Assembly: GCA_902597575.1 (NCBI GenBank)
Contig: CACJYF010000005.1
Span: 1-53,805, forward strand
From: an uncultured Pelagibacteraceae bacterium
GTDB lineage: Bacteria; Pseudomonadota; Alphaproteobacteria; Pelagibacterales; Pelagibacteraceae
Length of the DNA: 53,805 nucleotides
Direction: 5' to 3'
Shown in pieces: positions 46,175 through 49,019 of the stretch (positions are counted from its first letter, which is position 1; each line of letters starts with the position of its first letter). The notes below the pieces were generated by a model that was given only the letters and a program-made list of their open reading frames with translations, had not been told where the DNA came from and ran no database searches. The translations under genes were made by a program, and so were the position numbers.

Positions 46175-46801
46175 ATGAAAGTCACAATTGTTGATTATAA
46201 TTCGGGTAATATTAGCTCGGTGATAAACTCTTTTAAAGAAGTTGCCAAAGACAAAGTGAATATTGAGGTTGCTTCAGATTTAGGAAAGATTAAATCGAGT
46301 GATAAATTAGTTTTACCAGGACAGGGCTCATTTAAAAGTTGTGTAGATGCTCTAAATAAAATTGATGGTTTAACGGAAGCTCTAAACGAATTTGCAATAA
46401 ATAATAAAAAACCTCTTCTTGGAATTTGTGTTGGTTTACAAATGTTTGCTGATGTTGGGTATGAAGAAACCGAAACGAAAGGATTAGGATGGATTTCGGG
46501 TAAAGTTTCTAAAATAGATAACCAAAATGGTAAATTTAAACTTCCTCACATTGGGTGGAACCAGATAAATATTGCAAAGGATAGTAAACTTTTTAAAGAT
46601 ATTGAAAATAACTCACATATGTATTTTGTACACAGTTACGAATTTGTACCTAATGATAAAAATGTAATTTCAGCAACAACAGATTATTCTTCACTCATTG
46701 TTTGTTCAGTCGAGAAGGAAAATATTTTTGGAACTCAATTTCACCCTGAAAAAAGTGATAAAATTGGACTGAAAATTATTGATAATTTTTTAAGTTTATA
46801 A
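46175..46801 (+). CDS. hisH: imidazole glycerol phosphate synthase subunit HisH
   Basis: 'VDYNSGNISSV', 'LPGQGSF', 'LLGICVGLQMFADVGYEE', 'GTQFHPEKS'. Confidence 0.95.
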   Translation: MKVTIVDYNSGNISSVINSFKEVAKDKVNIEVASDLGKIKSSDKLVLPGQGSFKSCVDALNKIDGLTEALNEFAINNKKPLLGICVGLQMFADVGYEETETKGLGWISGKVSKIDNQNGKFKLPHIGWNQINIAKDSKLFKDIENNSHMYFVHSYEFVPNDKNVISATTDYSSLIVCSVEKENIFGTQFHPEKSDKIGLKIIDNFLSL

Positions 46802-46837
46802 ATTGAAACGTTCACAGAATTTTGTTAATATAAATTA

Positions 46838-47236
46838 ATGAAATTATCTTTAAAAACTTTAATTTTACTCGCATCAATTATATTCACTTTTAATATTGCT
46901 AATGCCGATAGTTGGTCCACTAATTCTTTGGGCATAACATCTGGTACACTTGGTGGTCAATCTTTCTCATCGTCAACTAATTCACTTGGAATTACATCAG
47001 GTTCAATTGGGAGCGAAACATTTTCCTATTCGACTAATTCTTTAGGTATTACATCTGGAAGTGTGGGTGGTCAATCTTTCTCATCGTCAACTAATTCACT
47101 TGGAATTACATCAGGTTCGATTGGGAGCGAAACATTTTCTTATTCGACTAATTCTTTAGGTATTACATCTGGAAGTGTGGGCGGCAATTCTTTTTCTTGC
47201 TCAACAAATTCACTTGGAATTACTACTTGTTATTAA
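46838..47236 (+). CDS. secreted tandem-repeat protein (19-aa STNSLGITSGS repeats), family not recognised
   Basis: Signal peptide 'MKLSLKTLILLASIIFTFNIANA' then five full 19-aa repeats plus a partial sixth; flanked closely by hisH and hisA on the same strand. Confidence 0.85.
   Translation: MKLSLKTLILLASIIFTFNIANADSWSTNSLGITSGTLGGQSFSSSTNSLGITSGSIGSETFSYSTNSLGITSGSVGGQSFSSSTNSLGITSGSIGSETFSYSTNSLGITSGSVGGNSFSCSTNSLGITTCY
46916..47233 (+). repeat. in-frame 57-nt tandem repeats (5 full plus 1 partial), with a 114-nt higher-order unit
   Basis: Units: 46916-46972, 46973-47029, 47030-47086, 47087-47143, 47144-47200, partial 47201-47233. The pair 46973-47086 is repeated at 47087-47200. Confidence 0.92.
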
Positions 47237-47280
47237 GAATTAATTAAATTTAAATATTTAGTTAATCAAATAATTCAAAA

Positions 47281-47997
47281 ATGAAAATATTTCCTGCAAT
47301 AGATATTAAAGATAAAAAGTGTGTAAGATTAGTTAAAGGAAATTTTCATAATAAAACCGAGTATGAACTTTCTCCAGTTGAACAAGCAAGGAAATATAAA
47401 GATTATGGATTTAAAAATTTACACATAGTTGATTTAGATGGAGCTTTAACTGGTGAGACAGTAAATTTAGACATCATCAAAGGTATAGTTGGTAAATTTA
47501 ATTTAAAAGTCGAGATAGGTGGTGGAATTAGAAATTTTGATAGTATCCAAAAATACGTCGATGCAGGTGCTGAGAAAGTAATTTTAGGAAGTGCTGCAAT
47601 AAAAGATAAAAACTTTCTAAAAGATGCTTGTCAAAAATTTCCTGATAAAATTGCTTTAGGTTTAGATGCAAAAGATGGATATTTATCGGTTTCAGGTTGG
47701 AAAGAAAATTCAAATCAATTAACTTTAGATTATTTAAAAGAAGTTAACGAATATGGTGTTAATAGATTAATTTATACGGATATAAATCGAGATGGTATGA
47801 AACAAAGCCCAAATTTTGATGAAACATCAAGAGTTGCAGAGATATCAAATTGTCCAGTAGTTATATCAGGTGGAGTTTCATCAATAGATGATATTAAAAA
47901 AGCCAAAACTTTGAATAATATTGAAGGTGTAATAGTAGGAAAAGCTATTTATGATGGAGATATTAAGTTAGATGAATTAGTAAAAGAAGATGCTTAA
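47281..47997 (+). CDS. hisA: HisA phosphoribosylformimino-5-aminoimidazole carboxamide ribotide isomerase
   Basis: '[18 protein letters not shown]', 'EIGGGIRN', 'VVISGGVSS'. Confidence 0.96.
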
Positions 47998-48745
47998 AAA
48001 TAGAATTATCCCTTGTTTAGATGTTAAAAATGGTCGTGTAGTTAAAGGTATTAACTTCGTTGAATTGAAAGATGCTGGGGATCCAGTTGAGCAAGCAAAG
48101 ATTTACTCTGATGGTGGAGCAGATGAAATATGTTTTTTAGATATTACTGCCTCAAACGAAAATAGAGATACAATTTATGATGTAGTTGAGAGAACATCAA
48201 AAAAATGTTTTGTCCCTCTAACTGTTGGTGGAGGAGTAAGAAGTATAAATGATATTAATAAATTATTAAATTGTGGTGCTGATAAAGTATCTATTAATAC
48301 CGCAGCTGTTGAAAATCCAAAAGTTGTTTTAGATAGTTCAAAAAAGTTTGGATCTCAATGCATTGTTGTAGCTATTGATGCAAAAAAAAATGGAGATAAG
48401 TGGGAAGTCTTTACACATGGGGGAAGAAATAATAGTGAAATTGATGTGTTAGAGTATGCAAAAAATATGGAAGATAGTGGGGCAGGAGAATTACTTGTAA
48501 CATCAATGGATAGAGATGGAACACAAATAGGTTATGACGTGGATTTGATGAATAAAATTGCATCAAAAGTAAACATACCTTTAATTGCCTCAGGAGGTGT
48601 TGGTAATCTAGATCATTTGGTTGATGGAATTAAGTTAGGAAATGCAAGTGCAGTTTTAGCTGCCTCAATATTTCACTATGGAAAACATTCAGTGCGAGAG
48701 GCTAAGGAATATTTGGACTCAAAAGGAATTCCTGTTAGAATTTAG
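47990..48745 (+). CDS. hisF: imidazole glycerol phosphate synthase subunit HisF
   Basis: '[19 protein letters not shown]', '[12 protein letters not shown]', 'LIASGGVGN'. Confidence 0.97.
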
Positions 48746-48746
48746 T

Positions 48747-49019
48747 ATGCTAAGTACTCTAGAAAACTTATTTAAACTAGCCCGTGAAAGAAAAGAAAGA
48801 CCAGTTGATGGATCTTATACCAACAGATTATTATCAGATAAATCTTTAAGCAAATCAAAAGTTTTAGAGGAAATAAATGAGTTGATTGAGGCAGCAGATA
48901 AGGACACTAATAAAATTCATGAGGCTGCTGATGTATTTTATCATTTGATAATTTATCTTGAGGCGCATAATATTAAAATTGAAGATATAGAAAAAGAACT
49001 AGAAAAAAGAAGAAAATAA
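48747..49019 (+). CDS. hisE: phosphoribosyl-ATP pyrophosphatase
   Basis: MLSTLENLFKLARERKERPVDGSYTNRLL...VLEEINELIEAADK...HEAADVFYHLIIYL. ATG at 48747. Confidence 0.92.
   Translation: MLSTLENLFKLARERKERPVDGSYTNRLLSDKSLSKSKVLEEINELIEAADKDTNKIHEAADVFYHLIIYLEAHNIKIEDIEKELEKRRK

Follow-up and report, generated by a model that had tools for sequence, protein, structure and literature searches.

A putatively exchanged cassette in the his operon of Pelagibacter encodes a Cys-capped repeat protein with probable relatives on plasmids and phages

Introduction

The functional amyloid subunits CsgA and FapC are exported proteins of about five short beta repeats. Neither gives a sequence match with the 132-residue protein described here, which differs from both in carrying a Cys cap. 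On the scale of genomes, aquatic prokaryotes possess replacement flexible genomic islands that are swapped by homologous recombination (PMC4033161). These islands resemble the present locus in that alternative genes are found at one site and homologous recombination is involved; the islands are larger, however, whereas our locus is a single intra-operon junction occupied mostly by one small gene.

The locus lies in a contig from an uncultured Pelagibacteraceae bacterium, and the window is the whole 53,805-nucleotide stretch of DNA that was analyzed. An earlier note on this DNA had drawn attention to a secreted repeat protein encoded between hisH and hisA. Our main reading, to which we give a probability of about 0.6, is that the gene is accessory cargo brought to this junction by recent exchange, and that its product would be a Sec-exported, disulfide-capped beta rod serving as a passive element of the cell envelope.

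Results

The ORF, its repeats and its termini. The coordinates, strand and placement given for the ORF in the earlier note are all correct (Table 1). Its mature part consists of DSW, five full 19-residue repeats starting at residues 27, 46, 65, 84 and 103, and an 11-residue partial copy that begins at residue 122, which bears out the number of copies first noticed. The repeat consensus is STNSLGITSG(S/T)(I/V/L)G(G/S)(Q/E/N)(S/T)FS(S/Y/C). The array, which exceeds chance, is scored by TRF at 482 with a 114-bp (38-residue) unit and 90% matches, implying that two 19-residue repeats of different types, GGQSFSS and GSETFSY, together make up the true unit at DNA level; the DNA of copies 2 and 4 is 96% identical, and the copies diverge mainly at third codon positions.

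Table 1. Positions of the cassette, its flanks and the elements of the repeat gene in the window
Feature	Position	Strand	Remark
hisH, left flank	46175..46801	+	GATase match
Block at 98.5% identity with G060 (10 of 670 positions differ)	46718..47387		Exchange footprint
Cassette between hisH stop and hisA start	46802..47280	+	Missing from G132 and G067, both close relatives
Promoter-like TTGAAA-17-TAATAT, TG before -10, 6 nt before ATG	46803..46831	+	Motif scan
Putatively exported 132-aa tandem-repeat protein	46838..47236, stop included	+	Identical protein in G060, synonymous changes only
Putative Sec signal peptide, 23 aa, cleavage predicted between ANA and DSW	46838..46906	+	Read from sequence by eye
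Array of five complete 19-aa repeats of 57 bp, with a higher-order unit of 114 bp	46916..47200	+	Repeat analysis
C-terminal cap C-STNSLGITT-C-Y	47198..47233	+	Last residue of repeat 5 and partial repeat 6
hisA, right flank	47281..47997	+	His_biosynth match

Residues 1-23 can be read by eye as a signal peptide, as had been claimed, with the n-region KLSLK, a hydrophobic core and an AxA-type site (MKLSLKTLILLASIIFTFNIANA-D), and export of the protein by Sec is inferred from it. The mature protein is devoid of His, Lys and Arg, lacks a conserved catalytic set, and has 0.09 side-chain nitrogen atoms per residue as compared to 0.27-0.31 in hisH, hisA and hisF. Given the absence of Lys and Arg, ordinary tryptic proteomics is blind to the mature protein, and its absence from such data would be meaningless. 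The only two cysteines, C121 and C131, which the earlier note did not mention, are located in the last copy and at the C-terminus, forming a C-X9-C pair that a single residue separates from the stop; the protein ends CSTNSLGITTCY. Upstream of the ORF, the promoter-like site could yield a leaderless transcript; the motif is not above chance, with 8 sites found against 14 expected.

Exchange of the cassette. The block that surrounds the cassette has sharp edges, and the DNA on both sides of it is more divergent from G060 than the block itself; hisA of G060 is only about 85% identical. In G132, by contrast, hisA is 97-100% and hisH 93-95% identical to the genes of the window, and the site is empty in both G132 and G067, where the hisA ATG directly follows the hisH stop. 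The flanks resemble a genome whose site is empty, whereas the cassette is 98.5% identical to that of a distant one; the alignments are thus most simply explained by recent exchange by way of homologous flanks, loss of the cassette in G132 and G067 being a conceivable alternative history. Exchange with G060-like DNA may have been wider than the block, since hisB, further left, is again 93-95% identical in G060.

The junction across Pelagibacter. The hisH-hisA junction is a cassette or insertion hotspot in Pelagibacter, inside the his operon. We picked 110 loci by hisA similarity, of which 106 could be parsed; in this sample, which is biased toward the nearest hisA genes so that its rates are indicative only, 68 loci have a gap of at most 38 nt and were counted as empty, and the other 38 have one of more than 60 nt, 35 of them with an ORF that encodes 35 residues or more. 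These ORFs fall into 13 sequence clusters of unrelated genes on the same strand (loci L015-L144), and the occupants include two kinds of 64-residue proteins, polysaccharide-lyase-like, Adhesin_E, GNAT and SHOCT proteins, and a glucose/sorbosone dehydrogenase. Hence, the repeat gene does form a cassette at hisH-hisA, as the words "inserted in the his operon" had implied, but this position is not peculiar to it; the earlier view that it plays no role in histidine synthesis is supported. The papers that we searched contained no published description of hisH-hisA as an insertion site.

Most frequent at the junction are tiny lipoprotein-like ORFs of about 45 residues (e.g. MNKFLFIIVCYFFLTSCQN...), present at 12 loci (L022, L024, L030, L035, L072, L078, L080, L100, L102, L126, L129 and L137). 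FkbM-type methyltransferases (Pfam PF05050, tested on L018) are seen at six loci (L018, L091, L095, L108, L111 and L140).

A second allele. The single-cell SAR11 genome G060 (AG-337-G11) encodes a 132-residue protein that is 100% identical to the one in the window, and the two cassette genes differ at 8 of 399 bases, all of them synonymous third-position transitions. If random transitions only are counted, the probability that all eight differences would be synonymous is about 2e-4. Because the differences are confined to third-position transitions and the protein is unchanged, the comparison points to purifying selection on the reading frame, and the claim that this is a real gene holds: the 132-residue gene is coding, exchanged and conserved. 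Two of 399 Pelagibacter genomes carry this protein, and a family profile search found no member in 146 other Pelagibacteraceae genomes. Such rarity in SAR11 counts against our main reading; together with near-identical repeats and recent tandem duplication, it would also suit a neutral or young gene, i.e. a simple-repeat ORF grown by slippage that has no selected function. The entirely synonymous differences between the two cassettes, the tendency of the repeat copies to vary at third positions, the clean signal peptide and the conserved Cys cap make this a remote prospect.

Relatives on plasmids and phages. Searches of Pfam, NCBIfam and PDB gave no match for the 132-residue protein, direct tblastn against phages and plasmids gave none, and searching the text of papers for the repeat peptides was likewise unsuccessful. 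A guided search of plasmids and phages was then made with a generalized query for a repeat motif, and full-length remote relatives were obtained from plasmids of Alteromonas, E. coli/Klebsiella/Serratia/Yersinia (WP_008324024.1), Acinetobacter (WP_216986683.1) and Aeromonas (WP_236544941.1), and from phages of Yersinia, Pantoea and Enterobacter (WOL24270.1, UJH96000.1 and XLD54448.1). All are labelled "hypothetical" or are unannotated. The earlier note had not recognized the family, and no curated library does match it to a characterized domain family; relatives nevertheless exist.

Because these relatives came from guided queries, and because such repeats mislead aligners, we ran permutation controls in which the 19 repeat columns were shuffled identically in all copies, thereby keeping composition and period. 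The score was reached by 0 of 2000 permutations for Alteromonas, 2 for E. coli, 4 for the Yersinia phage, 6 for Acinetobacter, 8 for the Enterobacter phage, 38 for the Pantoea phage and 41-46 for Aeromonas. The closest of these proteins in our comparisons, AGP79955.1 from a plasmid of Alteromonas mediterranea 615 (blastp E=4e-11, 33% identity, full length), resembles the SAR11 protein in length (134 versus 132 residues), signal peptide, 19-residue repeats (SDSFGNTTGRIGDDRVNTY) and C-terminus, where CTTDSFGNTTCR immediately precedes the stop; it differs in its D and N residues within DSxGN, a charged second repeat half and an extra Cys pair near the N-terminus. The enterobacterial, Acinetobacter, Aeromonas and phage proteins share the signal peptide and (T/K/R)DS(L/F)G(N/T) repeats, and differ in their alternating shorter repeat units and basic residues.

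Common to the relatives are their size, a signal peptide and xx(N/D)S(L/F)Gxx repeats, along with a C-X9-C pair in most. The SAR11 protein falls within the family size of about 110-135 residues and has the N-terminal signal peptide as read by eye; its six STNSLGIT cores follow the pattern x-x-(D/N)-S-(L/F)-G-x-x with N in place of a strict D, the D and N of the relatives being replaced in the SAR11 repeats by N and I, respectively. C121 and C131 are invariant in the family alignment. Moreover, the SAR11 protein shares the ending C-X9-C-x-stop with each of the six relatives of this type in the comparison of C-termini, a feature that does not enter the repeat score. The pair lies one residue before the stop in the members from enterobacteria, Acinetobacter and phages, while Aeromonas WP_236544941.1 differs by a C-terminal tail beyond it. 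Since an N-terminal Cys pair is not universal among relatives, it was not counted as defining: the mature SAR11 protein starts DSWSTNSLG and lacks it, as do the relatives L160 and L162. With moderate to good confidence, we regard the SAR11, plasmid and phage proteins as one unnamed family of Cys-capped, putatively exported DSxG-repeat proteins, apparently undescribed before and defined here from sequence. The main caveat is that convergence is possible, because the resemblance is restricted to a low-complexity repeat.

Proteins with a 14-residue IGNxTYxSDG unit (Phaeobacter WP_199536933.1, Variovorax WP_068674288.1) are alike in size, signal peptide and a terminal Cys pair one residue before the stop, spaced in their case C-X8-C. 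Their scores were reached by 24 and 377 of 2000 permutations, with 844 of 2000 for a Dickeya phage, and they may represent a sister type at most. Such C-X8-C-capped proteins, annotated as hypothetical, were seen on plasmids and a 253-kb Dickeya phage (L145:869-1195, L147:914-1240 and L173:2501-2860).

Several candidates were discarded. A self-repeat profile (A1) run over family and class returned chance matches only, for example ORFs antisense to an HflK-like gene and further ORFs in the wrong frame, and FMDV VP2 and other PDB matches at E>0.1 were dismissed as composition. We also dropped KQVNFADG ORFs beside rep genes of Klebsiella, which look like iteron DNA and have no signal peptide. On Klebsiella plasmids these are annotated as hypothetical proteins (L163:1317-1844 and L165:1476-1766), and are probably iteron arrays mis-annotated as genes.

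Predicted fold. AlphaFold2 models made with no alignment have a pLDDT of 69 for the full chain, and of 78 with a pTM of 0.66 for the mature chain, for which only one of five models is confident. The mature-chain model has about 17 strand residues per 19-residue repeat. A Foldseek search against PDB found no significant match to a known fold at a threshold of E<0.001, with nothing below E 0.5 and best values of about 0.58-0.65. The weak neighbors, none of them significant, are mostly beta-solenoids with TM up to 0.63 (a fungal antifreeze protein), and include tapirin, CsgA, ice-binding proteins, bactofilin and left-handed beta-helices. Ice binding, suggested by such folds in the list, was rejected because the matches lack significance and the protein has no TxT array. 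The beta-rich model and these neighbors favor a beta-solenoid for the mature protein; the small beta-solenoid or fibre-like protein envisaged earlier is supported by a beta-rich model, the solenoid itself staying a prediction.

The dimensions of the protein, with 5.5 repeats of 19 residues in 109 mature residues, approach those of CsgA, and CsgA and FapC are among the structure neighbors, as would suit a curli- or Fap-like functional amyloid subunit that is exported unfolded and whose repeats assemble into extracellular fibres. These structure matches are non-significant, however (E 0.58-3.7, TM 0.10-0.16); no CsgG channel was found in G000, G060, G132 or G067 (genomes 63-86% complete), there is no Q/N ladder, and a conserved Cys pair at the C-terminus speaks for a closed, folded protein, all of which renders the amyloid reading very doubtful.

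A free-standing strip of YD/RHS-like repeats is, in our judgment, very unlikely as well. An Rhs-family protein provides the best PDB hits of the family alignment (E=0.018), whose one other match among 200 genomes is an RHS protein, and the member from the Yersinia phage reaches 19.8 bits with PF05593, for which the cut-off is 22. The SAR11 protein itself, however, has no RHS match (PF05593, TIGR01643), its score with the RHS piece is close to zero, 44 of 500 permutations score as well, and the whole score of the profile is not above its null (20/199). The YD/RHS link therefore appears for the relatives and fails for the 132-residue protein, as far as these profiles can tell.

Discussion

On our main reading, the gene would have entered the hisH-hisA junction of a SAR11 chromosome through recent homologous exchange, and its product would belong to a family, as yet without a name, of small exported proteins built of repeats and spread over Pseudomonadota plasmids and phages. 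The signal peptide suggests that the chain leaves via Sec. Its 19-residue repeats are predicted to stack into a short rod of beta coils, about 5.5 in number and most likely forming a beta-solenoid, and the open end of this rod would be closed in the oxidizing periplasm by a C121-C131 disulfide inferred from conservation. Because the mature part lacks basic residues and a conserved catalytic set, the protein does not resemble an enzyme, and we conjecture that it serves the cell envelope passively, as a structural or binding element. The homologues travel on phages and plasmids and the gene sits at a variable site in the chromosome, which suggests an interaction at the envelope, conjecturally one that masks or alters contact with phages or conjugation.

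A factor for phage contact or entry exclusion, kept in SAR11 by phage pressure, would refine the main reading and does not exclude it. The homologues on phages and plasmids, and the position at an exchangeable chromosomal site used by other envelope genes, are consistent with this proposal; there is no PADLOC match, however, and the neighbors on phages are uncharacterized, so that we treat it as tentative and on the whole unlikely. The bolder form, in which an undescribed family of disulfide-capped exported beta rods on phages, plasmids and SAR11 chromosomes alters the envelope and thereby controls the entry of phages and plasmids, its SAR11 member being one of many genes swapped at a dedicated exchange point in the his operon, seems to us quite unlikely.

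The accessory-cargo reading connects a SAR11 gene that looks like an orphan with a family not yet catalogued. The terminal C-X9-C would provide a searchable structural signature for this family, which could be expressed in E. coli, a host with a plasmid-borne homologue. For genome biology, the junction means that a core biosynthetic operon of a very streamlined and abundant ocean cell contains a busy point of gene exchange. Finally, because G060 (L003/L169) has about 616 extra bases beside the start of the hisE-like gene (48678-49019), opposite about 48700-48850 of the window, a second cassette point near this gene is possible in the his operon.
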